DNA of 64,000 nucleotides from Mucilaginibacter rubeus (GTDB taxonomy: Bacteria > Bacteroidota > Bacteroidia > Sphingobacteriales > Sphingobacteriaceae), in contig NZ_BMKD01000002.1 in assembly GCF_014643835.1 (NCBI RefSeq), positions 558,001-622,000 on the forward strand. Reading direction: 5' to 3'. The translations under genes and the position numbers were made by a program. A model generated the notes under the pieces. That model saw only the letters and a program-made list of their open reading frames with translations, had not been told where the DNA came from and did not search any database. Positions 23,522 through 39,794 of the stretch are shown piece after piece; positions within the stretch are counted from its first letter, which is position 1, and each line of letters starts with the position of its first letter.

Positions 23522-26194
23522 TCAATTTTTTTGCTGAGATAGAAAAGTAACCAATGAGGCAAATTCATCATATGATAATGCATTGGCAAGCCCTACAGGC
23601 ATCATAGATGTTTTCAGTTCCTTCCTGGTAATCACATCGCTGGATTTAATGGTAAATACATCTCCGGTAATGTTTCTCATCACTATTTTTTGGGCAGACT
23701 CATCTGTAATAAATCCCATATAATTTTTATTTCCTTTAGCTGTGATCATCACCGTGGCAAATCCCTGCGAAATAGAAGCGCTGGGTTTTAGGATGGATTC
23801 GGCAATTTGCTGGCGGTTCATGATAGATCCTATCTGTCCCATAAACGGCCCTTTTAATTTTTCGCCACGGGTAAGGCTATGGCAGGCTACACAACCTTGC
23901 TGCGTAAAGAGTGCCCTTCCTTTCTTTGGATCTCCTTTAACTTTGGCTAACATCAACATCACATCTTCAATAGATGAATTACCGATCTGCCCTTTTTTGT
24001 TCAGGATCTTTGACAAATCTACTTTAACCTCTTTTGTTGGAACACTTTTTTCTTCACCGCCAAAAGCTGTAATTCCCATTTGGTGGCGCTCATTCAGGTC
24101 GGCATAAAATTGTTTGTCCGCAGCGCCTGCTTTGCTTCGTTCAAGCGTCAGGAACTTCTCGATACGAGCCGAGCCTTCCCAGGTTATACCTTTGTAAATT
24201 GGGCCATGTGAATCGGGCCGGGTTCCCCACCACCAGGATGCATCATAAGGAGCTTCCTGCTTATAAAGGCGTGCCAGGGTTACCAATATTTGTTTCTTTA
24301 TTTTTACATCTTTGATTTTAGGGTAAGCAGCAATCAAACCATTTACCGCTTTAGTATCGTACATATATCGCAATGCCCATAATGCTAATGTTGAATTGGT
24401 AGTTCCAATTGCACCAACGCATGCATCAACCGCATTCATGCTTACAAGTGCCCTCACAGCCAGGTGGGGCAGTATTATGGCCGAATTGGGTGTGGCGTGC
24501 GGCCCTTCGGTATTTTTAGCGGGCGCTGCAAAACTTGCAGGAACTTGTGTTTTAAGTAATTCAGAAGCTGCGTCTAAACGGCCAAGACGACCCAAACCTA
24601 TAATTGCCGCAGCCTTCACGCGCGGAGACGGATCTTTCAGCCCGTTCAAAAAGGGAGCTATTGGCACTTGTGCTATTCCTTCTTTCCTGTCTGTTAAGGC
24701 TCGTAATGCAAATTCCCTCAAAGCATTATCCTCCGTAAGTTGTACAAGGTTAGCTATTCCGCTCTCCCGGGCAATTTGTCCGTAAGTAAAAAGAGCAGCC
24801 ACCCGTGCATATAAAGCAACACTTGCATCTGATGCTACGGCAAAAGCTGCCTTGCTGCTTTCGTCAGCCGGTCTTGTAATAAGTTCCTGTGAAGCATTTA
24901 ATCTCGCCACTGCGCTTTCTGATTTTAACATATTGGCCAAATCAGCTACGGCCAGCGCTTTAACATCAGGAAATGCTTTATAGTTCCATCCATTAGGTAT
25001 AGCCCTGATAACATAGCCCTTTGATGCACTACCCGAATATCCCGCGCCATCCCAGGCCGAAAGATAAAGCCGCCCCGAACCATCAACATCCAGATCAGTG
25101 ATCTGAGGTAGTTCAATAAACGGTTCCTCAGTTTGTTTAAAACTGGCACCATCTGGTTTTACCCTATTTATATAAAGTTCGCTCCGTCCCCAGTCTGCCG
25201 TCATAGGTACATGGTTATATTTTTCGGGCCAGGTAGGTTCATCCATAAATAGCGAACCTGTGCCTGAACCGCCGCCCAAATCAACCAGGGCGGGCAGAAT
25301 CTCATCTGTAAAATGCTGAAATAATAAGGGGTAACCATATTCGCCCGATTGAATATGATGCGAAAAACGGATGTTCCATCCGCCGCCATCATTGGTATTG
25401 TCTCGGGTAAATACATTCATGTACGGATCTATGGCAACATCATAAATATTGCGGGTACCATGAGTATAAACCTCCATTTCTTTGCCATTAGGCCTTACCC
25501 TTATAATGCCGCCGCCAAGCATGGTCAGTTTTTTACCATCGCGGTCGGTAGCATCATGAAAGCCGAAATCGCCAACAGCTATGTAGATCCATCCATCAAT
25601 CCCCATACGGATGCCATTAGTAGCATGGTCTGTTCCGCGTTCAACCAGCATGTGAGCATTACTCAGGTGCTCGACGAGTGGTTTTGGCGGCCCGTCGGCT
25701 ATGCCATCATGATCTTTATCTTCAAAAACTTCAAGGATCATACCGGTCGCCTTAAGAGTTTCTTTTGAAAAAACTGTATGGAGCACAAAAACCTGGTCGC
25801 CCATGATGAGTATACCGCGCGGATCATCAACATCAGCAAAATCTGTATGCTTATCTAACTTGCCATCATTATCGCTATCGATAAGTTTAATTATCCGCCC
25901 TTTCCCGGGATCTTTACCCAGCGAACCAATCATATCAACGCCAACAAACACCTCGCCTGTGGCAGCCACAGCTAAACAAGCCGGACTTGGTGTAAGCTCA
26001 GGTCCGGCAAACCTGGTGATTGTAAAGCCGGCTGGCCAATGGAGCGAATCGCTCTTAGAATGACTTTGTCCTCGTATTGAAGCCAAAGTATTTGATTTAG
26101 TGGGTCCCGCTTCGTTACTGTGGATATTTGCAAAATATTTGAACGTCAAAATGAAAGAGAAACAGAGGAATAGGGTTAAGGAAAACTTTAACAT
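23522..26194 (-). CDS. Large c-type cytochrome with beta-propeller and HEAT-like domain
   Basis: An 890-residue exported protein. It has an N-terminal signal or anchor, then a PQQ-dehydrogenase-like six-bladed propeller (about 55-400; IDSDNDGKLD, DGIADGPP, NDGGGWNIRFSHH), an alpha-helical HEAT-like repeat region (about 420-640; DPSPRVKAAAIIGLGRLGR) and a C-terminal cytochrome c domain with haem motif GCVACHS (Cys768, Cys771, His772). This is the PVC-type or DUF7133-like layout of periplasmic sugar oxidation proteins. It starts 55 bases after the DUF1080 gene and is probably co-transcribed with it. Confidence 0.82.
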   Translation of the reverse strand: MLKFSLTLFLCFSFILTFKYFANIHSNEAGPTKSNTLASIRGQSHSKSDSLHWPAGFTITRFAGPELTPSPACLAVAATGEVFVGVDMIGSLGKDPGKGRIIKLIDSDNDGKLDKHTDFADVDDPRGILIMGDQVFVLHTVFSKETLKATGMILEVFEDKDHDGIADGPPKPLVEHLSNAHMLVERGTDHATNGIRMGIDGWIYIAVGDFGFHDATDRDGKKLTMLGGGIIRVRPNGKEMEVYTHGTRNIYDVAIDPYMNVFTRDNTNDGGGWNIRFSHHIQSGEYGYPLLFQHFTDEILPALVDLGGGSGTGSLFMDEPTWPEKYNHVPMTADWGRSELYINRVKPDGASFKQTEEPFIELPQITDLDVDGSGRLYLSAWDGAGYSGSASKGYVIRAIPNGWNYKAFPDVKALAVADLANMLKSESAVARLNASQELITRPADESSKAAFAVASDASVALYARVAALFTYGQIARESGIANLVQLTEDNALREFALRALTDRKEGIAQVPIAPFLNGLKDPSPRVKAAAIIGLGRLGRLDAASELLKTQVPASFAAPAKNTEGPHATPNSAIILPHLAVRALVSMNAVDACVGAIGTTNSTLALWALRYMYDTKAVNGLIAAYPKIKDVKIKKQILVTLARLYKQEAPYDASWWWGTRPDSHGPIYKGITWEGSARIEKFLTLERSKAGAADKQFYADLNERHQMGITAFGGEEKSVPTKEVKVDLSKILNKKGQIGNSSIEDVMLMLAKVKGDPKKGRALFTQQGCVACHSLTRGEKLKGPFMGQIGSIMNRQQIAESILKPSASISQGFATVMITAKGNKNYMGFITDESAQKIVMRNITGDVFTIKSSDVITRKELKTSMMPVGLANALSYDEFASLVTFLSQQKN

Positions 26195-26249: not shown

Positions 26250-27107
26250 TTATTGTTTAGGAATCCGTTTCTCAGCGGTCAACTGCTTAATTACGTCGGC
26301 TAATTTCTGAGGATCATGCGCGTATTTTTCAAGATTAACAATTTCAACTTTCCTAAACTCAACTGGATGGCTTTCGCTTTGCAGGGAAATTGTACCGCTT
26401 TTTAACAACGCACCCTCCTCTGCGCTGCCAACGGGATCTAATTGCGGACGCTGATAACGTAACACTTCTTCTCCGTTTACATAATGTACCACCAGCGAAT
26501 CGCCCAAAACAAGGGCCTCCACCCTAACCCACTGATCGCCATGAAAGGTTTCCGATTTTGAATCCAGGCAATGACTTTTAACTACCGAGTTATTTAAAAC
26601 GTACTGTGTACTAGGGGTGCACACGTTCGCCGTCGGCCGTTTATCTTTACCATTACCGCCCAACAACTGAACCTCAATGGATATTGGAAAATCCTGGTCT
26701 ACCTTCATAGTTTTAGGATCTTGCCCATGTATCATAATTCCGCTGTTGCGGAACGCCCATCCGGGGCCGCCTTTTACCTGGTTACCTGTGAAACGATACT
26801 CTACCCCTATCAGGTAATAAGAAAAAGGCTTTTTGTAAAACAAGTGCCCAAACTGGTCATCAAATTTTTCATATTGATCATAACTTACCTGGATCTTATG
26901 ATCAACAACCCTGAAGGTGTTACCAAAATTTTCATTTAATTGATGTTTCCTGATTTTAACAGTCCAATCCGTTAAATCCTTTCCGTTAAAAAGCTGTTCC
27001 CACTTAACTTTCAATTTTGGATCCGGGCGTTTAAACGCCAGTAATATGGACAGGCTTATTAAAAATAAAACACTCGGTGTTGAAAGAATGAGTCCACGCT
27101 TTATCAT
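26250..27107 (-). CDS. DUF1080 (3-keto-disaccharide hydrolase family) protein
   Basis: A 285-residue exported protein with a hydrophobic N-terminus and one DUF1080 concanavalin-like beta-jelly-roll domain. It carries the family's opening block (WEQLFNGKDLTDWTVK), NSGIMIHGQ and the terminal GTISLQSESHPVEFRKVEI. Members hydrolyse or eliminate 3-keto-glycosides made by periplasmic dehydrogenases. It is upstream of the large cytochrome, consistent with an oxidation-plus-cleavage pair. A 40-bp operator-like site lies 109-148 bases upstream of its start. Confidence 0.85.
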   Translation of the reverse strand: MIKRGLILSTPSVLFLISLSILLAFKRPDPKLKVKWEQLFNGKDLTDWTVKIRKHQLNENFGNTFRVVDHKIQVSYDQYEKFDDQFGHLFYKKPFSYYLIGVEYRFTGNQVKGGPGWAFRNSGIMIHGQDPKTMKVDQDFPISIEVQLLGGNGKDKRPTANVCTPSTQYVLNNSVVKSHCLDSKSETFHGDQWVRVEALVLGDSLVVHYVNGEEVLRYQRPQLDPVGSAEEGALLKSGTISLQSESHPVEFRKVEIVNLEKYAHDPQKLADVIKQLTAEKRIPKQ

Positions 27108-27454
27108 AACATATTTTTTTATTATCTAACTATTAGTTTATTGCCCGAAAAATAAAAAAGCAGATTGCTACATAGGTTTAACTGGCTGCTGATCAAAAAT
27201 GCAATAATAGAATTAGAAAAAAAGGGGGTAAAGCCCTAAATTTAAGGGGGTAAAATAAATTGCCTGTAAAAATCAAGATACAGAAAACTATCTGGTAGTA
27301 TAGAAGCAATTAACTATAGACATATACTCAAAACAGCACCATGAACACTACCCCTGCCCTTGCTTTGTAACATTATCACTTGGATTAAAAAACAAGACAC
27401 TTTTGTAAATCAATTTGATATTTTTACTTACCAATTATTAACTAATAATTTATA
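27108..27454. other. Divergent regulatory region of the glucan locus
   Basis: No gene is seen. The gap separates the DUF1080 gene (minus) from the hybrid regulator gene (plus) and contains the paired C-rich operator-like site at 27216-27255. Confidence 0.7.
27216..27255 (-). promoter_or_regulatory. Operator-like paired repeat, site 1
   Basis: Read toward the DUF1080 gene (minus strand) it contains TTTTACCCCC and CTTTACCCCC, 22 bp apart. 34 of 40 bases match site 3 upstream of the SusC gene, including an identical 19-base run. The probable binder is the hybrid regulator encoded 200 bases away. Confidence 0.65.
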
Positions 27455-30400
27455 ATGCATAGTAGGATAAATAACGTCTTAAATCCGAAAATATACTTTA
27501 GTTTCCTGTTCCTTTTCGTTTACCTAAATGTTTTTGGTTTCACAGCCGGGCAGCCCGTGCGGTATCTTGGTATCGAAAACGGACTATCTAATAATGCGGT
27601 TACATCTCTCTACCAGGATCAATATGGTTTTATGTGGATGGGTACTTATGATGGCTTAAACCGGTATGACAGTGATGAATTTAAAGTCTACAGAAACGAG
27701 TGGAACAACAACAAATCCCTCCCATACAATCATATAAGTGCCTTAAATGGTGTTGGTAACAAAATATTGATAGGCACACAACGCGGGCTTGTTTTTTATA
27801 ATTACCCCAACTCTTATTTCTATCCGGAATATTTCCGGGAGCACAACAGCGGGCACCGGTTAAAAATAGCTTCAAATATCAATGTTATTGTAACCGGTAA
27901 GGACAGTAGCATATATATAGGATCCGATGAGCTGGGATTATTGAGATATGATAAAACCAGGAAACTTTACCTGCAAACGGGCCTTACCAACCAATATAAT
28001 TATAGTGTAAAAGCATTATGCCTCACCCGGGCAGGAGTTTGGGTATTTGTAAAAAACCGCGGACTGGGTTTATACGATCCAAAATCTGATCGTATAAATA
28101 TCATCAATACTCAACTTTACAGTGCCAGTTGCCTGCTTTCAGATAAAGCGGGTAACCTTTGGATAGGCACCGAAAACGGCTTGTTTATATTTAACAGTAA
28201 AACACTAGCTATCAAGAGGTTTAACCAGACTATTGATAAACTTACAAGCGATAACATATCCAATTTAACTCTCGACGAAAAAGGTAATATCTGGATAGCT
28301 ACCGACGGTGGCGGCATCAATATTTTAAATACAGATAGTGGCAAACTCACTTTTATTACCAATGGTAACAAAGCAGGTTCATTGCGCAGCGGGGCTGTTA
28401 CCGCGGTTTATCATGACATGGAATCAAGAAAATGGATAGCAACCCTGCGCGGCGGGGTTAGTGTCGTAGACAACTTTAAAAAGCCGTTCGCACTTTTTAA
28501 CAATGATCCCTTCAATAAAAACAGCGTGATCAACAATTTTATCCTTTCATTTTGTGAAGATGAAAAGCATAACCTATGGATAGGCACAGATGGCGGCGGG
28601 CTTTCTTACTGGGACATAAAAAATAATTTATACACCGGTTATACTCATGCATCAACCGGTGGGGGCCTGAGTACCGATTTTATCGTGAGCATACTTAAAA
28701 CCTTCGATAATAAAATATGGGTGGCTTCTTTCAACGGTGGTATTGACCAGTTTAGCAAAGCTACCGGCAAATTCAAGCATTACAACTGCTATAATACATT
28801 AACTCAAACAACCGATAGAAACCTATGGAAACTTTTTGAAGATTCCAGGCACCATTTATGGGCAGGTACTACCAGGGGCGGCCCATTGTATCTTTATAAC
28901 CGAAAAAATGACCGCTTTGAACTATTTGATGAAAACCTCGTTAACATACATGCTATATTTGAAGACAGTAATGGAAACTTGTGGGCAGGCAATTACACCC
29001 GGCTCATTAAAATAGATACCGTTAAGAAGGCTCATCATTTTTTTAATGTGGGTTATGGCATCAGAACCATAGCGGCTGATAATTCAAATCATTTATGGGT
29101 TGGAACTGAGGGTGGTGGATTGTTAAAATTCAACCTTCCTGATATGGTCCGTGTGAGGTATACCAAGGCCAATGGTTTGCCGGGTAATTCCATCCTTAAT
29201 ATCCTTATCGACAATAAAGAAAACCTATGGTGCAGTACTTACAATGGTTTAAGCAGGTTTTCCCCGGCAAAAAATAAGTTTACAAATTATATTGTTTCTG
29301 ACGGTTTGCAAAGCCTCCAATTTAATTACAACGCGGCTATCCGGCTTCAATCGGGCAATATGGCCTTTGGAGGGATTAATGGATTTAACATTTTTAATCC
29401 CGACAGCATACAGGTAGCAGACCATAGGCCCGATCTTCGCATTACCGGCTTGAAAATTGACAATTCAGAAACCGATGGCTCCAGCGAATTGCTCAAAAAT
29501 CAATCTGTAGCGGATCTTAAAACAATCCGGCTTAATTATGAACAGGCTGCGCTTACCGTTCATTACACGGCGCTCGAATATTCGTTTCCGGATAAAATTG
29601 AATACGCTTATTATCTTGAGGGATGGGACCATGGGTGGAACTATGTGGGCAAGACCAAATCTGCATATTACACTCATTTAAATGAAGGCAATTACAGGCT
29701 AAGGATCAAAGCTACAGACACCCGGGGAAACTGGATGCCGAAACAGATCAGTGTTAAAGTTATTGTGTTTCCGCCATGGTACAGAACGTTGTGGGCCTAC
29801 GGGGTATACCTGGTTATTATCTTTGGGATAATGTACCTTTATTTCCTATACCGGGTAAAGCAGGCAAAGCTTAAATTTGAAATTAACCTGGCTAACTTAA
29901 ATGTTGAAAAGGAAAAAGAACTGAATGAAAAGAAGCTCGCTTTTTTTACCAATGTTTCGCACGAGTTCAGAACGCCGCTTACGCTGATCATTAATCCTAT
30001 CAAGGATCTGCTTGAGAAAAACAAAAGCCATTCGGACGAGCTAAATACGGTATATAGGAATGCCCGGCGCTTATTAGGATTGGTAGATCACCTACTGCTG
30101 TTCCGCAAAACTGAAAGCGAAAACCCGCAGTTAAATATAAGTGAGATAAATTTTGTGCGGGTATGCGAAGAGGTATTTTCCTGCTTTGCACATCAGGCTA
30201 AAATCAAAAACCTGAATTTTAACATTGAAACAACCAGCAGGAATATTACGGTATTTGCCGATGTCGAAAAAATAGAGATCTCATTGTTTAACCTTATTTC
30301 GAACGCCGTTAAGTTTACACCAGATCACGGCACCATCAAGATTTTTGTGGAAGAAGATGACACACATGTTTACTTTAAAATAACAGACAATGGTATTGGT

Positions 30401-31540
30401 ATCAATACCGAAACCGGCGATAAACTGTTTGATAAATTCTACCAGGTAAAGGATAATAATTACTTTAAAAAGGGTTTCGGTATCGGTTTGTACCTGGTTA
30501 AAGTATTTATTGATTGCCATAAGGGCACGATAAACTATTTAAATAATAAAGATGGCGGAACAACCTTTACCTTAAAGCTATCAAAAGGAATAAAACACTT
30601 TTCGGTAGAGGAGATAAATATTGTAACAGCTCCTGACTATAATTTTGTAAATGACCTTATAGATCATGACAGCAAAGATTTGGTTGAAGAAAATAATGAA
30701 TTGCAGAAGCTTGAACTGTTTAGCCAGGAAAAGCATACCCTCGTTGTTATTGACGATAATGAACAGATCAGGACATATATCAAAAAAATATTTTTTGCCG
30801 ACTATTTAGTTCTTGAAGCAAAAGATGGAACAACCGGTCTTGAGTTGATTAAAAAATACATACCAGATCTGATCATCAGCGATATTGTAATGGACGGAAT
30901 AAACGGGTTGGATTTATGTAAAATGATTATGGATGATGCAGCCATAAAGCATATCCCGGTTATTTTGCTCACCGGCGATACCACACCCGATATTATGGTT
31001 AAAAGCCTTGAACAAGGCGCAATTGACTTTTTGCGAAAACCATTTGATAAAGAATTGCTCACAGCAAGGGTTAAAAGTGTGTTGAGGAATAAAACCAAAC
31101 TTCAGCAATATTTTTATAAGGAGGTTACGAAGGAAAACATAGCCATTAATATTTCGCGGGAAAATAAAGACCTGCTCAACAACTGTATTGCTGTTATTGA
31201 GCAAAATTTCAACAGCGACAATTTTGATGTTTATGCCCTTGCCGATGCAGTCGGCATTAGTTATCCAACATTATTTAAAAGGATCAAAAGCACTACCGGT
31301 CAGTCTATCAACAACTTTATCAGGTTTGTTCGCTTGCGTAAAGCCGCCGAGCTCCTGATCCAAACCAATTGTAATATCAATGAGGCGGCAATACAGGTAG
31401 GTATCAGCGATATCAAATATTTCAGGGAACAATTTCACAAACAATTCGGCGTCAATCCATCAGAATTTATCAGAAAACACCGGGCAAATTTCCAGGTCTC
31501 CTATCGCTTAAACGAGTTTGAAAAACCTCCCGTAAATTAA
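27455..31540 (+). CDS. Hybrid two-component system regulator (HTCS)
   Basis: A 1361-residue one-protein signalling system. It has an N-terminal signal sequence, a two-propeller periplasmic sensor of Reg_prop repeats (about 30-690; many WIGT and LWAGT blades), a Y_Y_Y domain (about 700-770), a transmembrane helix (about 778-802), a HisKA domain with phospho-His836 (SHEFRTPLT), HATPase_c (DNGIGI, KGFGIGLYLVK), a receiver with Asp1143 (DLIISDIVMDG) and an AraC-type DNA-binding domain (about 1245-1345). Such proteins bind a glycan fragment and activate nearby polysaccharide genes. Complete, with all key residues present. Confidence 0.95.
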   Translation: MHSRINNVLNPKIYFSFLFLFVYLNVFGFTAGQPVRYLGIENGLSNNAVTSLYQDQYGFMWMGTYDGLNRYDSDEFKVYRNEWNNNKSLPYNHISALNGVGNKILIGTQRGLVFYNYPNSYFYPEYFREHNSGHRLKIASNINVIVTGKDSSIYIGSDELGLLRYDKTRKLYLQTGLTNQYNYSVKALCLTRAGVWVFVKNRGLGLYDPKSDRINIINTQLYSASCLLSDKAGNLWIGTENGLFIFNSKTLAIKRFNQTIDKLTSDNISNLTLDEKGNIWIATDGGGINILNTDSGKLTFITNGNKAGSLRSGAVTAVYHDMESRKWIATLRGGVSVVDNFKKPFALFNNDPFNKNSVINNFILSFCEDEKHNLWIGTDGGGLSYWDIKNNLYTGYTHASTGGGLSTDFIVSILKTFDNKIWVASFNGGIDQFSKATGKFKHYNCYNTLTQTTDRNLWKLFEDSRHHLWAGTTRGGPLYLYNRKNDRFELFDENLVNIHAIFEDSNGNLWAGNYTRLIKIDTVKKAHHFFNVGYGIRTIAADNSNHLWVGTEGGGLLKFNLPDMVRVRYTKANGLPGNSILNILIDNKENLWCSTYNGLSRFSPAKNKFTNYIVSDGLQSLQFNYNAAIRLQSGNMAFGGINGFNIFNPDSIQVADHRPDLRITGLKIDNSETDGSSELLKNQSVADLKTIRLNYEQAALTVHYTALEYSFPDKIEYAYYLEGWDHGWNYVGKTKSAYYTHLNEGNYRLRIKATDTRGNWMPKQISVKVIVFPPWYRTLWAYGVYLVIIFGIMYLYFLYRVKQAKLKFEINLANLNVEKEKELNEKKLAFFTNVSHEFRTPLTLIINPIKDLLEKNKSHSDELNTVYRNARRLLGLVDHLLLFRKTESENPQLNISEINFVRVCEEVFSCFAHQAKIKNLNFNIETTSRNITVFADVEKIEISLFNLISNAVKFTPDHGTIKIFVEEDDTHVYFKITDNGIGINTETGDKLFDKFYQVKDNNYFKKGFGIGLYLVKVFIDCHKGTINYLNNKDGGTTFTLKLSKGIKHFSVEEINIVTAPDYNFVNDLIDHDSKDLVEENNELQKLELFSQEKHTLVVIDDNEQIRTYIKKIFFADYLVLEAKDGTTGLELIKKYIPDLIISDIVMDGINGLDLCKMIMDDAAIKHIPVILLTGDTTPDIMVKSLEQGAIDFLRKPFDKELLTARVKSVLRNKTKLQQYFYKEVTKENIAINISRENKDLLNNCIAVIEQNFNSDNFDVYALADAVGISYPTLFKRIKSTTGQSINNFIRFVRLRKAAELLIQTNCNINEAAIQVGISDIKYFREQFHKQFGVNPSEFIRKHRANFQVSYRLNEFEKPPVN

Positions 31541-31611
31541 ATATCAATGGTGCAAAATTGGGAAGAAGAAACATCAGCTGTCTTAAAAAAGAAGAACAAC
31601 CTTGAACATAA

Positions 31612-31651
31612 TTTTCTCCCCCTTTAGTTTATGGTTTTATCCCTCCTTTAT
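31612..31651 (+). promoter_or_regulatory. Operator-like paired repeat, site 2 (weaker)
   Basis: TTTTCTCCCCCTTTA and TTTTATCCCTCCTTTA are about 23 bp apart, in the same orientation relative to the GH16 gene as sites 1 and 3 have to theirs. It lies 75 bases before the GH16 start. A TTATTTTG (31667-31674), one mismatch from the -7 consensus, follows at promoter distance. Confidence 0.5.
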
Positions 31652-31725
31652 GCGTTAAACTATGCCTTATTTTGCTTCGGACGAAATCAATAAGATCATT
31701 TAAGATTTAAACTTATTTCATTATT

Positions 31726-32559
31726 ATGATTACTAAAATAATTACTGTCCTACTGCTGATAGCAATTCCGCTCGTCGGTAAATGCCAACAGGATACGGTG
31801 GGCGGTTATAAATTGGTTTGGGCAGATGAGTTTGACGAGTACGGCTCTCCTAATCCGGATAATTGGGCATTTGAATCCGGTTTTGTACGGAATAATGAAG
31901 ATCAATGGTATCAGGAGCAAAATGCAATTTGCCGCCACGGCAAATTGATAATCGAAGCACAGAGGGTACACCTGACAAATCCTGGGTACGTACCTAACAG
32001 TACCAACTGGAAACAGAAAAGACAATTTATAAATTATACATCGTCAAGCATCAATACAAGGGGCAAACACAGCTTCCAATACGGCCGCTTTATTATGCGC
32101 GGCCGTATAAGTACCGATGCCGGCCTATGGCCCGCTTTTTGGACCTTAGGTATCGAAAAGCCCTGGCCGTCTAACGGAGAAATTGATATTATGGAATATT
32201 ACCAGAATAAGCTTTTGGCTAATATTGCCTGCGGTACGGCTTTGCCCTATAAAGCCAAATGGTATAGTAACACCAAGACCCTCAATACTTTCAAAGCCAA
32301 CTGGAGTAAGAAATTTCATACCTGGCGCATGGATTGGGATGCCACAGCTATAAGTTTATATGTAGATGATAGCCTGCTCAATCATGTCGAGCTAAAAGAT
32401 CTTATTAATCAGGACGGCACTCAATTTAACCCTTTTATGCAGCCTCATTATATATTGCTGAACCTTGCAATAGGGGGCGACAATGGTGGCGATCCATCTG
32501 CCACAAAATTCCCTAAACGGTTTGAAGTTGATTACGTTCGGGTGTATCAAAAAAATTAA
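31726..32559 (+). CDS. GH16-family glycoside hydrolase (beta-glucanase type)
   Basis: A 277-residue exported enzyme with a signal peptide (cleavage near VGKCQ) and a single GH16 jelly-roll domain. The catalytic motif is GEIDIMEYY: nucleophile Glu152, assisting Asp154, acid/base Glu157. Supporting blocks are LVWADEFDE, YGRFIMRGRI, GLWPAFWTLG and HTWRMDW, typical of the laminarinase/licheninase branch. Endo-hydrolysis of a beta-1,3- or mixed-linked glucan is likely, but GH16 also covers agarases and others. It lies between the HTCS gene and SusC. Confidence 0.92.
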   Translation: MITKIITVLLLIAIPLVGKCQQDTVGGYKLVWADEFDEYGSPNPDNWAFESGFVRNNEDQWYQEQNAICRHGKLIIEAQRVHLTNPGYVPNSTNWKQKRQFINYTSSSINTRGKHSFQYGRFIMRGRISTDAGLWPAFWTLGIEKPWPSNGEIDIMEYYQNKLLANIACGTALPYKAKWYSNTKTLNTFKANWSKKFHTWRMDWDATAISLYVDDSLLNHVELKDLINQDGTQFNPFMQPHYILLNLAIGGDNGGDPSATKFPKRFEVDYVRVYQKN

Positions 32560-33108
32560 AGCGCCGGATCAATACATTTTGTTTGCTGCCTTTTAAAATT
32601 GTCATATATACATTATTCCTCACCAAAAACAGGGACATAAGACCGTTTTATTTTAAAAACGTTGCATATAATGGATTTTATCCCCTTTTTTTTACAGCTT
32701 TACCCCCTTTTTTTCCAAAAAAATAGCGCTTAATTGTCGCTACCAATTAACATAGACTGTTTGTTATACCCTGCAAAAAAATTATACAGCCTTTTCGTAC
32801 AGATTTTTTATTTGTTAAAAATTGCCTGCTGATGTTGTTCAATAATATAGCTTCTTAAGTTTTAAGAAACACCAGGCTATAATTATTAATGCAAGCTTAA
32901 AACGGGAAGCTACCATTGTTCTTTGAAATTACTACCTGAATTGCGCCCTAAATTTAAACTGTTATTTTAACAATTATTCTATTAACTCATTTCATAACCT
33001 AACAAAAAATTATGGCAAGACAGAAAAACTAAAAAGGAAAAAGGAAAACGGACCACGATCCAAACGCATTAACAAATGCCAAGTTTTAAATTCTAATCAC
33101 TCCCAATT
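32560..33108. other. Upstream region of the second SusC gene
   Basis: No gene is seen in these 549 bases. Site 3 (32676-32715) lies in the first third; the rest looks like promoter plus a long, A-rich untranslated leader, common for susC genes. No confident -7 element can be chosen among the T-rich candidates. Confidence 0.6.
32676..32715 (+). promoter_or_regulatory. Operator-like paired repeat, site 3
   Basis: TTTTATCCCC and CTTTACCCCC are 22 bp apart, 34 of 40 bases identical to site 1 on the opposite strand. It points toward SusC, 394 bases from its start codon, leaving room for a long leader. Confidence 0.65.
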
Positions 33109-36100
33109 ATGCAATATTTTTTACCTGATAAAATATCTTTGAGAAGAAAATCCGGGTCAGTAGTTTTATCACTGATCCTGCTGATAGCTATGCAAACAAG
33201 CAGCTATGCAGCTATTGTCTTTAATTCTTTCAGCGGAATAAAACTTAACCGATATACCGCCGCTGTACCTATTAAAGGTAAAGTAATTGACAAAACCACC
33301 GGCGAAACCATCATCGGCGCATCTGTAAAAATCAAAGGAACCAGCACAGGTGCCGTTACAGACGTAAATGGTAGCTTCACGCTTAATGCCGACCCTAACG
33401 CAGTTCTGGTGATTTCCTACATCGGTTATGAACAGGCTGAGTTCCCGTTGAACGGACAAACCTCGGTAACCATCAGGTTACAGGTAAATGCCAAAAACCT
33501 GAATGAGGTAATCGTGGTAGGTTACGGTACCCAAAAGAAAACATCTTCAACTGCAGCCGTATCAACCATTCAAACTACCGAAATTGCGAAAAAACCGGTG
33601 GTTAACTTAACCAACAGCCTTGTTGGCCGTGCCTCTGGCTTAATCATAACCCAGGGTAGCGGCGAACCAGGTTATGACGGTTCAAACATATTGATCAGGG
33701 GCATCGGATCAACCGGCGGCAGTTCTCCCCTGCTTATTGTTGATGGTGTGCCACGCGATTTCAGCCGTCTTGATCCAAACACTATCGAAAACGTATCGGT
33801 ATTAAAAGACGCTGCTGCTGTTGCTCCATATGGTGTGGCGGGCGCAAATGGCGTAATACTGGTTACTACCAAAAAAGGTAAATCGGGCAAACCTACTTTA
33901 ACTTATAACGGTTATTATGGCCTCCAGAACCCCACCAAAGTACCAACCTTTGTGGGTTCGTATGAGTATGCATTGCTGCGTAATGAGGCCAATGCCAATG
34001 ATGCAAAAGATCAAGGTGTTCCTTATGTTCCGTTTGCAACAGATGACGATCTTCAAAAATTCAAAGACCATTCAGATCCTGATGGTCACGCTGATGGTCA
34101 CCCTTTACAGCAAATTATCCAAAAAAACCGCCCCATAACCTATCATAACGTAACACTATCTGGCGGTACAGAAGATATTAAATATTTTGCTGCTTTAGGT
34201 TATACGCACCAGGATGGTATGTGGAGCACAACTTATCTTAACAAGTACAATGGCTCGTTAAACCTAACGGCAAACGCTACTAAAACCACTACAATATCAT
34301 TGTCTGTGAACAGCTATGTAGAGGATCAGCATTTCCCATCCCAGAGTGCTGCAACGATTATAGGTCAGGCACAACGCCAGGCACCAACCACACCTATTTA
34401 CTACAGTAATGGCTTGTGGTCTGGCTATATCGGTCAATCATTAATAGGCGAAATTTATCATAGCGGTTATCAATTTAATGAAAATACGGCCGTATTGTCG
34501 CAGTTTACTATTGACCAAAAGCTTCCGATCAAAGGTTTAAGCCTGAAGGGCGTAATTAGTTATGATAATGGGCCTGATCCGTTGTTCACAGGAAATCAAA
34601 CATCTTTCCAGCGTATTTACGCCACACCGATACCTTTTTACAACGTTGACACAAGCCATATTCCTTACACTTACAATACAGGTATACAAGGCAATGATAA
34701 AGCTACATTTACCGAAAACTACAGCCAAAATCACACATTAACTATACAGGGCTTGTTATCGTATTCAGGTTCATTTGGTAAAAGCGATATCACGGCTTTA
34801 GGCGTATTTGAAAGCCGCCGCGTAAAATATCAAATTTTTGGTGCCACTAAATACAATTATAACCTTAATATTGACGAACTGGATTTTGGTGGCCCGGCCG
34901 CCGCGGATGCAACTAACTTCGGTCATTCCGAAGGCCAAAAACAAATTGGTTATGTTTATAGGGTGGGATATTCCTATGACAAAAAATACCTGCTTGAAGC
35001 GTCAGGAAGATATGACGGAAGCTATTTATTTGCACCCGGCCACAGATATGGCTTTTTCCCTGCTTTTTCTGCCGGTTGGCGCTTGTCTGAAGAAAAATTT
35101 ATAAAAGACAATATTCTCTGGCTTGACAATTTAAAAATCCGGGCATCTTGGGGAAAATCAGGTGCATATCCAAGGCTCGGTGGCACAATCCAAACATATC
35201 AGTATCAAAGCCCCTACACACCTTACGCAAACTCCGCTGTTATCAATGGCAGCGCTACCCAAGGTATCTACGAAACAAGGCAGGGCAATCCTAATATTAC
35301 CTGGGAAAAAGCAACGAAAACCGACATCGGGTTTGAAGCTACATTATGGAAAGGCCTTTTAAATATTGAGGCAGATTACTTTTATGAAAAAAGGGGCAAC
35401 ATGCTTGTGAGTATCGCAAACACGCTACCTGGAGAATATGGATTAGGCGTGGGCCTTGTAAATGGAGGCATCATGAGCAATCATGGTATCGATCTGACAT
35501 TGCAAAGTTCCCATAGCTTCTCAAAAGACCTGCGTTTAGATGTTACGGGTACTTTTACATTTGCAAGGAACAAGCTATTACAAACTTTCGAAAACAGCGC
35601 AACGGCAAATAATCCTAACAGAAGACAGACGGACAGGCCTTTAAACACGATATTCGGCTACCAGGCATTAGGTTATTTTAAAACAACAGATTTTAACCCA
35701 GATGGATCATTGAAAGCTGGTATACCAGTTCCTTCTTTCGGGACGGTTAGAGCAGGTGATATCCAATATGCTGATTTAAGTGGGCCCGATGGAAAACCAG
35801 ACGGCAAGATAGATGCTAACGATCAAACGGTAATCGGTCATCCAAATACCCCGGAGATCATCTATGGTCTGGAACCGAGGTTAACGTTTAAAAACTTTGA
35901 TCTTGATGTTTTATTCCAAGGTTCGGGTAATAGTAATATTGTTATCAGCAACTATTTCGCCTTCCCATTCAACGCGTCTGGTTCGGCGTCACAGTTGGTG
36001 TATGACAACCATTGGACACCTTCTACCCCAAATGCCTTATATCCGAGGGTTACCGGTACACCGACCTCAAATAATACACAAACCTCGTCCTGGTTTGTCA

Positions 36101-36324
36101 GGAATGACTCCTACATCAGATTAAAAAGCTTTGAACTCGGTTACACTTTGTCAAACAGGCTACTGAAAAACAAGATTCAATCAATTAGGATCTATCTTGC
36201 AGGTCAAAACGTTATTAACTACTTACCGCACGTAAAGGAGATCATTGATCCTGAAAACAGCGGTAGCAATACCAACTACTACCAACAGCGTGTATTTTCA
36301 TTAGGTTTAAATGTCACCTTTTAA
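33109..36324 (+). CDS. SusC/RagA-type TonB-dependent transporter of the glucan locus
   Basis: A 1071-residue outer-membrane transporter. The basic N-terminal leader is longer than usual (MQYFLPDKISLRRKSG) before the hydrophobic segment. It is followed by a carboxypeptidase-like domain (about 53-130; IKGKVIDKTTGETIIGASV), the linker NEVIVVGYGTQKK, a plug (SPLLIVDGVPRDF, SVLKDAAAVAPYGVAGANG) and the barrel ending SLGLNVTF. It imports oligosaccharides released outside by enzymes such as the adjacent GH16. Followed 18 bases later by its SusD partner. Confidence 0.95.
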   Translation: MQYFLPDKISLRRKSGSVVLSLILLIAMQTSSYAAIVFNSFSGIKLNRYTAAVPIKGKVIDKTTGETIIGASVKIKGTSTGAVTDVNGSFTLNADPNAVLVISYIGYEQAEFPLNGQTSVTIRLQVNAKNLNEVIVVGYGTQKKTSSTAAVSTIQTTEIAKKPVVNLTNSLVGRASGLIITQGSGEPGYDGSNILIRGIGSTGGSSPLLIVDGVPRDFSRLDPNTIENVSVLKDAAAVAPYGVAGANGVILVTTKKGKSGKPTLTYNGYYGLQNPTKVPTFVGSYEYALLRNEANANDAKDQGVPYVPFATDDDLQKFKDHSDPDGHADGHPLQQIIQKNRPITYHNVTLSGGTEDIKYFAALGYTHQDGMWSTTYLNKYNGSLNLTANATKTTTISLSVNSYVEDQHFPSQSAATIIGQAQRQAPTTPIYYSNGLWSGYIGQSLIGEIYHSGYQFNENTAVLSQFTIDQKLPIKGLSLKGVISYDNGPDPLFTGNQTSFQRIYATPIPFYNVDTSHIPYTYNTGIQGNDKATFTENYSQNHTLTIQGLLSYSGSFGKSDITALGVFESRRVKYQIFGATKYNYNLNIDELDFGGPAAADATNFGHSEGQKQIGYVYRVGYSYDKKYLLEASGRYDGSYLFAPGHRYGFFPAFSAGWRLSEEKFIKDNILWLDNLKIRASWGKSGAYPRLGGTIQTYQYQSPYTPYANSAVINGSATQGIYETRQGNPNITWEKATKTDIGFEATLWKGLLNIEADYFYEKRGNMLVSIANTLPGEYGLGVGLVNGGIMSNHGIDLTLQSSHSFSKDLRLDVTGTFTFARNKLLQTFENSATANNPNRRQTDRPLNTIFGYQALGYFKTTDFNPDGSLKAGIPVPSFGTVRAGDIQYADLSGPDGKPDGKIDANDQTVIGHPNTPEIIYGLEPRLTFKNFDLDVLFQGSGNSNIVISNYFAFPFNASGSASQLVYDNHWTPSTPNALYPRVTGTPTSNNTQTSSWFVRNDSYIRLKSFELGYTLSNRLLKNKIQSIRIYLAGQNVINYLPHVKEIIDPENSGSNTNYYQQRVFSLGLNVTF

Positions 36325-36342: not shown

Positions 36343-38031
36343 ATGAAACAGAATTTTATAAAATACAGAGAGCTTTTTTTACTTGCTTTGCTTATTATAA
36401 GTATCAGTGGTTGTAAAAAGGACAGCTCTTTAGATGTTACGAATAAAGCATCACTATCAGACCAAGCGACATTCAATTCGCAAGGTAACGCAGACCTTTT
36501 TGTGAACGATATATACAATCAAATTCCCGATGTCAATAACGACTATCAGCTTACCGAGCAATATGCTGATAATAGTTTTTGCGGAGCGGCCTGGGAAAAC
36601 GGGCAAGCTACAGTAAGGGTTGGTTCAATTGGACCAAGCAACGTACCTACCGGCCCCGGCAGTATGTGGTCATGGGAAGGGAACTATACCAAAATACGAA
36701 AATGCAATGTATTTCTGCAGCAGGCTGCTTTAAATAAAGCAAAGTATACCGACGACTGGTATAAGCAACGCGTTGCGGAGGTTACATTTCTAAGAGCTTA
36801 CTTCTACTCACTGTTGTTCACAGCTTATGGCGGGGTGCCTATTATTACTGTCCCACTTGACAACCGGAATGGAAGCGACATTTTTACCGCCCGTGGCACT
36901 ATTGATGAGACTGTTGCTTTTATTGAGGCTGATTGCGATGCCGCAGCCGCTGTTTTACCCACAAAAGCAGCACAAACCGGGAGAGCTACCAAAGGCGCCG
37001 CATTAACACTTAAGGGCTGGGTAGAGCTTTTTGCAGCCAGTCCGTTGGTAAACACGGCCAATGACGCGGGAAAATGGAGTAAAGCAGCAGCTACCAACAA
37101 ATCAGTGATGGATATGGGTACTTATAGCCTGTTCAACACTTCGGCTACTTCTTATGCCGACCAGTTTCTATCGGCAAACAACTGGAATGTTGAAACGATA
37201 TTTGCCCGTGGTTATGCTACAGGGCCTGCAAAGGGTAGTCACCGGGAAGGTTACCTGGGCCCGGTTTATGTCAACGGCGTTCAGCAGTCATGGGGAAACC
37301 TTGCTCCAACACAGGGCCTGATTGATGATTACTCGATGGATAATGGCTTGCCTATTACAGATGCGGCTTCAGGATATAACCCTCAAGCCCCTTACACCCA
37401 TCGTGAGCAACGTTTTTATCAATCTATATTATACGATGGTGCAGCCTGGCAGGGAGATATCATAAAAACGCGGATAGGCGGCAGTAACCAGATAGATCTT
37501 GCTTCTGCAAGCGATATCACCAATACCGGTTATTATGCCCGTAAAACGCTTGATGAAAGCATCACCGGGCAAACCAGTATCAACCTGGCGCCAAGTTTTG
37601 CCAATTACATTATTTTCCGCTATGCGGAAGTATTGCTAAGTTATGCCGAAGCGCAAAATGAAGCGGTTGGACCGGATGCGTCGGTTTATGACGCGGTTAA
37701 TAAGGTGAGGGCGAGATCTGCCTTGCCTGCTGTAAAAGCCGGCTTAACCAAGGATCAAATGCGTGTATATATTCGTCGCGAACGGCGTATTGAGCTCGCA
37801 TTTGAGGATAAGCGATGGTTTGACATCCGCAGATGGCTGATAACTACCGGCACAAACGGTGTGCTTACCACGCCGGAATATGGCATGAAGATCGAAGCCG
37901 GTGGGTCAGGGCTAACGTATACCCCGGTTAAGATATTTACCAATACCTTCTTCGAGCGGCAAAACTGGATGCCAATTCCGCAAGCGGAAATTGACAAGAA
38001 TAAAAAACTGGTACAAAACCCAGGATACTAA
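36343..38031 (+). CDS. SusD/RagB lipoprotein of the glucan locus
   Basis: A 562-residue lipoprotein (Cys24, SISGCKKD) of the classical SusD/RagB family. It has N-terminal helical TPR-like pairs (VTFLRAYFYSLLFTAYGGVPII) and the C-terminal SusD block (YIIFRYAEVLLSYAEAQNEA, ERRIELAFEDKRWFDIRRW, ending PIPQAEIDKNKKLVQNPGY). It binds glycan on the surface and closes the SusC barrel. In operon with SusC; the next gene begins 149 bases later after a hairpin. Confidence 0.95.
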   Translation: MKQNFIKYRELFLLALLIISISGCKKDSSLDVTNKASLSDQATFNSQGNADLFVNDIYNQIPDVNNDYQLTEQYADNSFCGAAWENGQATVRVGSIGPSNVPTGPGSMWSWEGNYTKIRKCNVFLQQAALNKAKYTDDWYKQRVAEVTFLRAYFYSLLFTAYGGVPIITVPLDNRNGSDIFTARGTIDETVAFIEADCDAAAAVLPTKAAQTGRATKGAALTLKGWVELFAASPLVNTANDAGKWSKAAATNKSVMDMGTYSLFNTSATSYADQFLSANNWNVETIFARGYATGPAKGSHREGYLGPVYVNGVQQSWGNLAPTQGLIDDYSMDNGLPITDAASGYNPQAPYTHREQRFYQSILYDGAAWQGDIIKTRIGGSNQIDLASASDITNTGYYARKTLDESITGQTSINLAPSFANYIIFRYAEVLLSYAEAQNEAVGPDASVYDAVNKVRARSALPAVKAGLTKDQMRVYIRRERRIELAFEDKRWFDIRRWLITTGTNGVLTTPEYGMKIEAGGSGLTYTPVKIFTNTFFERQNWMPIPQAEIDKNKKLVQNPGY

Positions 38032-38180: not shown

Positions 38181-39794
38181 ATGAATAATAAACCTGATAG
38201 TCACCGTCCTGCAAAAAATCGCAAAGTTGTAATTGTTGGTTCGATTGTTTTGGTCATAACCGTTTTGGTAGTTTATTCAATATGGCATTTCTCTGAAAAC
38301 AAACAGGATAATGCCGGTACAGATCTACGTACCGATTACCCCCTGGCAACCCTTCAAAGCATTGCCAGGGGAAAGATCTTATCTCAACAATACTGCCGCT
38401 CGTGCCATATGCTGCCCGACCCAGCCCTGCTTAACAGGTTTAAGTGGAAAAATGTATTTCCGCAAATGGGTTTACGTATGGGCATTAAAGCTTACAGAGG
38501 CGAATCATACGTTGGTACAATTAAGGGCGACGATTTGATTGTGCCCGACAAGCCCGCATTAAATGAGGAACAATGGCAGGATATTATCGATTATTACATG
38601 AACACCGCCCCTATTGCCTTACCTGCACAAAACAGGCCTATGGCTATTAAACGGGAGCTTCCCTTTTTTAACATCCAAAAACCACAGCAATCATTTGACG
38701 GCAAACAGGTGTTGGGCTGCTATGTAAGAATTGACAACAGCGTTAAGCCCGCCCGTGTTTTTATTGCCAACGGGCAAACAAAAAAGCTTTATCTTTTATC
38801 AGGTCAATTAAATATCATCGATTCGGTATCAACAACCGGCCCTGTGGTTGATATGCTTTTCGACCATGGCAATACCATGGTCTGCACCATAGGCAATGAA
38901 TTAGGTGCCAACAGTGATAAACTGGGGACTATAACCCCATTAACCATTTCCGCCGAAGGCAAAATGCAATTAGCATCTCAGCCTGTATTCAATAAGCTTG
39001 GTCGCCCGGTTCAAATACTGGCGGCCGATTTGAATAACGACAACAAAACCGACTATGTTATTTGTGAATTTGGGAGTATAACGGGCGGGCTTTGCTGGAT
39101 GGAAAATTTGGGTACCGGCACTTTTACCAAGCATGTAATAAGTAATTTACCCGGAGCCATAAAAGCATATATTGATTATAAGGATAAAAAATTATCCGGC
39201 CTGTACGTGCTTTTTGCACAGGGCGAAGAAGGGATTTTCCATTTCGAAAACAAAGGGAGCGGCAAATTTGATTCAAAGGAAATTTTAAGGTTCCCGCCGA
39301 TCTATGGGTCATCCTACTTTGAAATGGTTGACATGAACCATGACGGGTATAAAGACATAGTTTACACCTGCGGCGATAACGGGAATGCAACGCTGGTATT
39401 AAAACCATACCATGGTGTCTACATTTTTTTAAACGACGGAAAAGACGATTACAAACAGCGATATTTTTACCCTATAAACGGCTGCTATAAAGCTATCGCT
39501 AAAGATTTTGATGGTGACGGGAATATTGATCTTGCAACGATCAGTCTTTTTACCGATGCAAAGCAGCCTGAAGAAGGCTTTGTATATCTAAAAAACATCG
39601 GCAACTTAAACTTTGTCCCATATGCTTTCCCTGCCGATACAAAGTTTGAACGTGCGGTAACTCTTGATGCCGGTGATATAAACGGTGATGGAAAACCCGA
39701 CCTCCTTATCGGAAATGCTTTTTTTGATTTTGGCCCCTTCAGCTATAATATCAAAGAGCCGCTTTTCTACATTTTGAAAAACGCTTCGAAGTGA
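38181..39794 (+). CDS. Membrane-anchored cytochrome c / FG-GAP (VCBS) repeat protein
   Basis: A 537-residue protein with an N-terminal membrane anchor (VVIVGSIVLVITVLVVYSIW), a cytochrome-like domain with haem motif CRSCH (Cys72, Cys75, His76), then an FG-GAP/VCBS beta-propeller with Ca-binding-like loops (DLNNDNKTD, DMNHDGYKD, DFDGDGNID, DINGDGKPD). It may pass electrons from an oxidised sugar to the membrane chain, or bind glycan. It follows SusD on the same strand and completes the locus. The catalytic role is inferred only. Confidence 0.75.
   Translation: MNNKPDSHRPAKNRKVVIVGSIVLVITVLVVYSIWHFSENKQDNAGTDLRTDYPLATLQSIARGKILSQQYCRSCHMLPDPALLNRFKWKNVFPQMGLRMGIKAYRGESYVGTIKGDDLIVPDKPALNEEQWQDIIDYYMNTAPIALPAQNRPMAIKRELPFFNIQKPQQSFDGKQVLGCYVRIDNSVKPARVFIANGQTKKLYLLSGQLNIIDSVSTTGPVVDMLFDHGNTMVCTIGNELGANSDKLGTITPLTISAEGKMQLASQPVFNKLGRPVQILAADLNNDNKTDYVICEFGSITGGLCWMENLGTGTFTKHVISNLPGAIKAYIDYKDKKLSGLYVLFAQGEEGIFHFENKGSGKFDSKEILRFPPIYGSSYFEMVDMNHDGYKDIVYTCGDNGNATLVLKPYHGVYIFLNDGKDDYKQRYFYPINGCYKAIAKDFDGDGNIDLATISLFTDAKQPEEGFVYLKNIGNLNFVPYAFPADTKFERAVTLDAGDINGDGKPDLLIGNAFFDFGPFSYNIKEPLFYILKNASK

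Follow-up and report, generated by a model that had tools for sequence, protein, structure and literature searches.

Paired C-rich direct repeats around a hybrid two-component system gene in Mucilaginibacter rubeus as predicted activator operators

Introduction

Hybrid two-component systems (HTCSs) are major glycan switches of the Bacteroidota, and the papers found on their operators concern gut Bacteroides. In a 64,000-nucleotide stretch of the Mucilaginibacter rubeus genome (contig NZ_BMKD01000002.1, positions 558,001 to 622,000; hereafter the window), an HTCS gene is surrounded by three paired C-rich sites, and the question raised by this locus is whether these are operators and, if so, which regulator they serve. 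An earlier note on this DNA had proposed that they define the regulon of the HTCS encoded between them. The paired sites are confirmed here as real, and our preferred reading, at a rough probability of 0.82, is that they are activator operators of that HTCS at three promoters, those of a DUF1080-cytochrome unit, a glycoside hydrolase family 16 (GH16) gene and susCD.

Sequence and conservation of the sites

The exact pattern TTTAYCCCC-N13-TTTAYCCCC occurs only twice in the window, once on the minus strand (27224-27254) and once on the plus strand (32677-32707), and was matched in 0 of 100 dinucleotide shuffles. The two sites containing it, sites 1 and 3, are identical at 34 of 40 bases and have in common, by direct reading, a run of 19 bases, GCTTTACCCCCTTTTTTTC; both figures, and the two units repeated 22 bp apart, had been given in the earlier note and stand. 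The weaker copy which it placed before the GH16 gene is real and weak, with units TTCTCCCCC and TTTATCCCT at 31614-31644 and 3 mismatches to the pattern; its position needs correction, the best register lying 1 base to the right of 31612-31651 (28/40 to site 1 and 26/40 to site 3, vs 23/40 and 25/40 in the register originally given). The C-rich strand is directed at the next gene in all three sites, again as had been claimed, and the units form a direct repeat throughout.

27216..27255, minus strand: site 1, predicted operator facing the DUF1080-cytochrome unit; exact match, 39.7 bits, kept in 5/5 close relatives; distal unit 27246-27254, proximal unit 27224-27232
31614..31644, plus strand: site 2, predicted weak operator facing GH16; 3 mismatches, 26.3 bits, position kept in 5/5 close relatives; units 31614-31622 and 31636-31644
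32676..32715, plus strand: site 3, predicted operator facing susC; exact match, 35.5 bits, kept in 5/5 close relatives; units 32677-32685 and 32699-32707

The profile behind these scores was built from 22 sites, among them sites 1 to 3, and under it the next best position in the window reaches 8.2 bits.

Among named relatives, Mucilaginibacter gossypii Gh-67 is the nearest, its HTCS being 97% identical to that of the window; the nearest genome compared (G001) has 33% of sampled 31-letter words in common with the window and likewise an HTCS 97% identical. When six loci were aligned (the window, M. gossypii, M. endophyticus, M. kameinonensis, M. gossypiicola and strain SMC90), sites 1 and 3 stood out in 5/5 relatives as blocks of near-identity amid drifting intergenic DNA, and are thus conserved before orthologous genes, as HTCS operators are. 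The place of site 2, its spacer and its proximal CCC are kept in all six. Of 19 further HTCS loci, 13 carry a site within 3 mismatches directly 3' of the HTCS gene, and the gene which follows is susC in 12 and a GH88-like gene in the other (L074).

Distribution and genomic context

Across 149 Mucilaginibacter genomes the exact pattern gave 15 matches and its reversed reading 0; the G056 match among the 15 falls inside a called frame, with no HTCS label close by in its 3-kb locus, and is apparently fortuitous. With the gap left free from 3 to 30 there were 29 matches, of which 15 fell at a gap of 13, 2 at 12, 3 at 14 and 9 elsewhere, compared with 3 matches for the pattern read backwards. The profile, at E-values up to 0.01, found 92 matches in 44/149 genomes, a number that takes in the training sites and their orthologues and so does not represent 92 independent finds; removal of near-duplicates left a non-redundant set of 45. 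A mirrored profile gave 2 matches in the same genomes (E 0.007 and 0.009), and at E up to 0.005 the counts were 82 vs 0. A strong motif throughout the phylum was rejected, since only 2 of 247 genomes across it matched at E up to 0.001, both of them Mucilaginibacter; sites with up to 3 mismatches are also found 3' of HTCS homologues in Hufsiella, a Chitinophagaceae metagenome-assembled genome and Niastella.

An HTCS, counted only if aligned over more than 900 residues, lies within 3 kb of 65/92 profile matches, where a share of about 2% would be expected from the 14 HTCS-like frames (Y_Y_Y frames of 1300 amino acids or more) in the 7.1 Mb of G001. Neighbouring genes were labelled as SusC or HTCS by blastp against the window proteins rather than from curated models, and weak HTCS labels (24-28% identity over 221-851 amino acids) near sites in G023, G083 and G150 are left out of the 65. 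For 7 more matches there is an HTCS within 18 kb. The next gene is on the same strand in 91/92 and begins within 450 bp in 89/92, being susC by script label in 46/92 at that distance. Five matches lie inside a called frame: three (G064, G128, G150) look like chance, and the other two are real promoters overlapped by the called frame.

For the 20 matches that are left, no counted HTCS was found in about 10 kb on either side. They face 6 susC genes, 3 GH35, 3 GH43-type and 3 GH16-type genes, 1 BNR_4 gene and 1 gene without a Pfam family, the last 3 being the doubtful matches noted above; Pfam scans cover 3/3 of the GH35, 2/3 of the GH43-type and 1/3 of the GH16-type genes, the 332-amino-acid gene of G049 and the 274-amino-acid genes of G018 and G137 being classed by length and site distance like the scanned GH43 and GH16 genes. 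The GH16-type trio, at E 0.007-0.008, scores no better than the range of the two mirrored-profile matches; it recurs in three genomes at equal spacing, and its one member in the non-redundant set has the promoter-like box described below in place.

Two relatives bear on the DUF1080-cytochrome unit. In G005 a homologue of the window cytochrome gene (74% over 502 amino acids) has its own site 14 kb from the HTCS, and a DUF1080 gene of G135 (81% over 253 amino acids) is likewise preceded by one, which argues that both genes belong to the regulon regardless of position.

A promoter-like box at a fixed distance

Beyond the repeat, the tetramer TTNG is found at offset 26 past the proximal unit in 33/45 non-redundant sites, the next best offset having 5 and the mean of the rest being 0.38. 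The profile stops 3 nt past the proximal unit and the box columns were thus unused by it. Column counts over the 45 sites give TTAWTTNG at offsets 22-29, with a unit-to-box gap of 22 bases. At the position of the -33 element TTTG is not conserved; the columns there are taken up by the proximal unit's run of C and the bases that follow it directly. We infer from this layout an activator which replaces the upstream promoter element. Transcription would be expected to begin shortly past the boxes, near 27187 (minus strand), 31680 (plus strand) and 32743 (plus strand).

27194..27201, minus strand: -7-like box CATTTTTG of site 1, at the fixed offset 22-29 after the proximal unit
31667..31674, plus strand: -7-like box TTATTTTG of site 2, read at the fixed offset
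32730..32737, plus strand: -7-like box TTAATTGT of site 3, read at the fixed offset, with its G one base early

The presence and conservation of the sites, their 22-bp period, the fixed offset of the box, the HTCS neighbourhood and the same-strand target genes were thus all obtained directly.

The regulator and a proposed mechanism

The gene between the sites encodes a single chain holding PF07494, PF07495, PF00512, PF02518, PF00072 and PF12833 (Pfam), the domain set of an HTCS, the last being the AraC-type helix-turn-helix (HTH) domain.

27455..31540, plus strand: HTCS, with Reg_prop propeller, Y_Y_Y, HisKA, HATPase, receiver and HTH_18 domains (Pfam)
about 31238-31474, plus strand: HTH_18 domain of the HTCS, residues 1262-1340 (Pfam)

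For this system we infer binding, phosphorylation dependence, activation and the ligand as follows. A periplasmic glycan fragment would be sensed by the propeller and Y_Y_Y domains, upon which the HTCS kinase would phosphorylate the receiver, and an HTCS dimer would settle through its AraC-type domains on the two TTTAYCCCC half-sites, which at a distance of 22 bp, about two helical turns, lie on the same DNA face. Of the two, the proximal one would occupy the position of the -33 element, upstream of the -7-like TTAWTTNG box at its fixed offset, and because of this placement the bound activator could contact RNA polymerase and so switch on the DUF1080-cytochrome, GH16 and susCD genes. As the locus contains a GH16 gene, a beta-glucan is a plausible signal, a guess made from that one gene.

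Such a system would give a soil genus a sharply defined operator and promoter geometry, with targets predicted even where there is no regulator nearby, and would link a polysaccharide sensor with DUF1080 and cytochrome genes. It also lends itself to asking how paralogous regulators with look-alike operators stay apart.

Weighing the alternatives

Comparison of regulators bears on whether the neighbouring HTCS reads the sites. Over 84 distinct HTCSs the best site score in the flank rises with the identity of the HTH domain to that of the window HTCS (Spearman 0.74, a figure which ignores shared ancestry and for which flanks of unequal length were searched), and the 7 HTCSs with an HTH domain under 35% identical have best site scores of 1.5 or less. 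The HTCSs of G011 and G025, with HTH domains 64% and 69% identical, have no site in the flank searched, and sites 15 and 11 kb away. Besides the limits just attached to the correlation, and the dependence among the 92 matches, a number of observations weigh against the reading of the three sites as operators of this HTCS. HTH domains 48-59% identical form a mixed group, some with and some without a good site, and 6 of 24 HTCS-homologue loci (L076, L077, L080, L082, L083, L084) have no site at up to 3 mismatches, although weaker ones beyond that threshold are present in L077 and L080. The weakness of site 2 shows in its distal unit, degraded in 2 relatives among the six aligned loci, and in its G001 counterpart, which scores only E=0.185. 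As to the box, the G of TTAATTGT falls one base early, a paralogue clade at 35% identity has its box about 2 nt further on, and TTAWTTNG is related but not identical to the published TAnnTTTG, the latter occurring at the offset with up to 1 mismatch in 8/45 non-redundant sites. The plain pattern with 3 mismatches proved unspecific (34 matches vs 26 read backwards in one genome) and was replaced by the profile.

The alternative with most in its favour, which we nonetheless consider rather unlikely, is that several paralogous HTCSs read a common operator, in which case the promoters would respond to two or more glycan sensors, with the neighbouring HTCS as one input among them. Paralogues in M. 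gossypii are about 60%, 35% and 34% identical to the window HTCS. Four of the 14 HTCS-like frames of G001 have an adjoining site at E up to 0.01, and of the 27 sites without an HTCS within 3 kb, including the 20 with none in about 10 kb, 17 of those 20 face susC, glycoside-hydrolase or similar genes. However, the paralogue clades keep their own distal-unit and spacer details across species (TTTAYCCCC with TTAAATTTAGGGC or TTTTTTTTACAGC; TTTGACCCC with AATTTATAGT; TTTATCCCC with ATATTGAGGC; TTTGTCCCC with TATTGA), which looks like separated specificities. The sites lacking a nearby HTCS would also suit a different regulator, or a general promoter element of sugar uptake which finds itself close to HTCS genes only through shared loci. 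This is improbable given the proximity of an HTCS to 65/92 matches, the dependence of site score on the HTH domain and the tandem 22-bp repeats, which suit AraC-type dimers; moreover, a general susC promoter element was rejected, as few of the at least 56 susC genes of G001 carry a site (a lower bound, 56 of 145 candidates having been scored) and the other susC of the window, at 12522, has none. Slightly less probable still is that the HTCS acts at these sites as a repressor. Its receiver motif is KHIP in place of the S/CHIP which, in the Bacteroides work consulted (PMC11253607), is tied to phosphorylation-gated binding and from which deviating HTCSs can repress. Such deviation is common here, NHIP, KHIP, GHIP and QHIP together making up 31/84 HTCSs, and a repeat lying upstream of the -7-like box, over a -33 position without conserved TTTG, suits an activator. 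The full count of receiver motifs in the 84 HTCSs is 27 SHIP, 18 NHIP, 10 KHIP, 2 GHIP and 1 QHIP, with 26 unmatched by the expression used.

The reading as activator operators of the HTCS encoded between the sites is therefore preferred: the predicted operators are very probably real and probably serve that HTCS. Of the regulon claim in the earlier note, the operator part holds, as the sites behave like operators of this HTCS in their conservation among orthologues, their transporter and enzyme targets, the 22-bp repeat, the AraC-type domain and the fixed box offset. That they define its regulon is too strong, because paralogous HTCSs, those of G001 among them, appear to use closely similar repeats, and certain copies precede genes of families GH16, GH35 and GH43 where no HTCS turned up in about 10 kb on either side; the sites are thus not private to one regulator. 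Many copies at unrelated loci, which the note had named as grounds for abandoning the idea, were found in part, the other copies being few and mostly beside related regulators.

It is tempting, though rather unlikely to be right, to go further and suppose one rigid module, [C-rich unit]-13-[C-rich unit]-22-[TTAWTTNG] without a -33 element, serving a whole subfamily of paralogous HTCSs, whose sensors might share a near-identical operator and jointly control linked and unlinked enzyme genes. If this tentative model were true, several glycan sensors in each genome would be kept apart only by small distal-unit and spacer differences, and the regulon would take in the DUF1080-cytochrome unit, suggesting that a 3-keto-sugar route is coupled to GH16 polysaccharide cleavage.

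Other features of the locus

The genes which the sites face, and those adjoining them, are as follows.

23522..26194, minus strand: DUF7133-HEAT-cytochrome c protein (Pfam)
26250..27107, minus strand: DUF1080 / 3-keto-disaccharide hydrolase (PF06439; Pfam), predicted target of site 1
31726..32559, plus strand: GH16 enzyme (Pfam), predicted target of site 2
33109..36324, plus strand: SusC-like transporter (Pfam plug and CarboxypepD_reg domains), predicted target of site 3
36343..38031, plus strand: SusD-like lipoprotein (Pfam)
38181..39794, plus strand: FG-GAP protein (Pfam) with a CRSCH heme-type motif read directly

DUF1080 proteins have been tied to 3-keto-disaccharide hydrolysis in the part of the literature consulted (PMC9007349). 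The DUF7133-HEAT-cytochrome c gene is a probable operon partner of the DUF1080 gene because the two are on the same strand with a 55-bp gap, and the FG-GAP gene is possibly the last of the susCD operon. The FG-GAP protein is the second heme-type protein of the locus besides the DUF1080-cytochrome unit. Directly before the HTCS start codon is an AT-rich block (27389-27450), conserved in the six loci and without C-rich repeats, which is probably the HTCS gene's own promoter. No structured RNA was matched in 27000-33200 against Rfam up to E=1.

A second, distant GH16 gene in G001 (contig 41) is faced by a C-rich site at L127:9779-9809, in a locus of GH32, SusCD, PfkB and transporter genes where 19.9 kb was inspected and held no HTCS; sites stand equally distant before the 274-amino-acid gene in G018 and G137.

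Short frames precede susC. At 33012-33032, about 75 bp before the gene, is a six-codon frame (MARQKN and a stop), and like frames (MARQKN, MARQKK, MAKQKN, MVKQNK) occupy the same place in 7/8 close relatives, the eighth (G142) having MER; this is possibly a leader peptide. In 10 loci picked from the paralogue clade at 60-67% identity (L132, L134, L142, L176, L177, L180, L182, L222, L225, L227) susC is preceded, at a distance of about 113-120 bp, by a frame that is always 20 codons long and mostly reads MKxSK...VVLNRPG; this frame was present in 0/64 other distinct susC leaders checked. Its differences by codon position number 237, 229 and 304, and it is a possible translated leader peptide.

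Comparison with known systems

In Bacteroides thetaiotaomicron, 16/36 HTCSs have predicted motifs, described in the part of Ravcheev et al. (2013; PMC3878776) compared here as direct repeats with a mean spacing of 21 bp, with dimers on one DNA face, alike between close paralogues and with occasional distant targets. The predicted Mucilaginibacter operators fit this kind closely: they are direct repeats on one face (spaced 22 bp in 15 of the 29 free-gap matches, 21 bp in 2 and 23 bp in 3), they precede susC and enzyme genes near an HTCS, their motifs are similar between paralogues, and some targets are unlinked. They differ from those described there in being C-rich, in the 22-bp period and in the fixed offset to a -7-like box, an offset not seen in the part of that paper compared. 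The direct repeats before sugar-utilisation genes are also reminiscent of SusR-type operators, whose units are 67 or 77 bp apart in the same source, in contrast to 22 bp here.

With BT4124 on bt4114 and BT4663 on bt4662, two susCD promoters where receiver-HTH fragments bind DNA in a phosphorylation-dependent manner (Gao et al., 2024; PMC11253607), the window system has in common the receiver, the AraC-type HTH domain and the susCD promoter. Binding was measured there and is predicted here, and KHIP stands against S/CHIP, Ser or Cys being at the first position of the motif in 84% of the Bacteroides cases reported in the part of that paper compared. The housekeeping promoter of Bacteroidetes is given as TAnnTTTG at -7 and TTTG at -33 (PMC7366714, in the part consulted); the box at constant offset resembles the former in ending TTNG, whereas its consensus is TTAWTTNG and the proximal operator unit takes the -33 place, where TTTG is not kept.

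Judged from titles and abstract openings, no literature description of a C-rich operator of this kind was found. Compared with the parts of the literature considered here, what this locus adds to the known HTCS operators is their C-rich sequence, their genus-wide distribution and their constant distance to a -7-like box.

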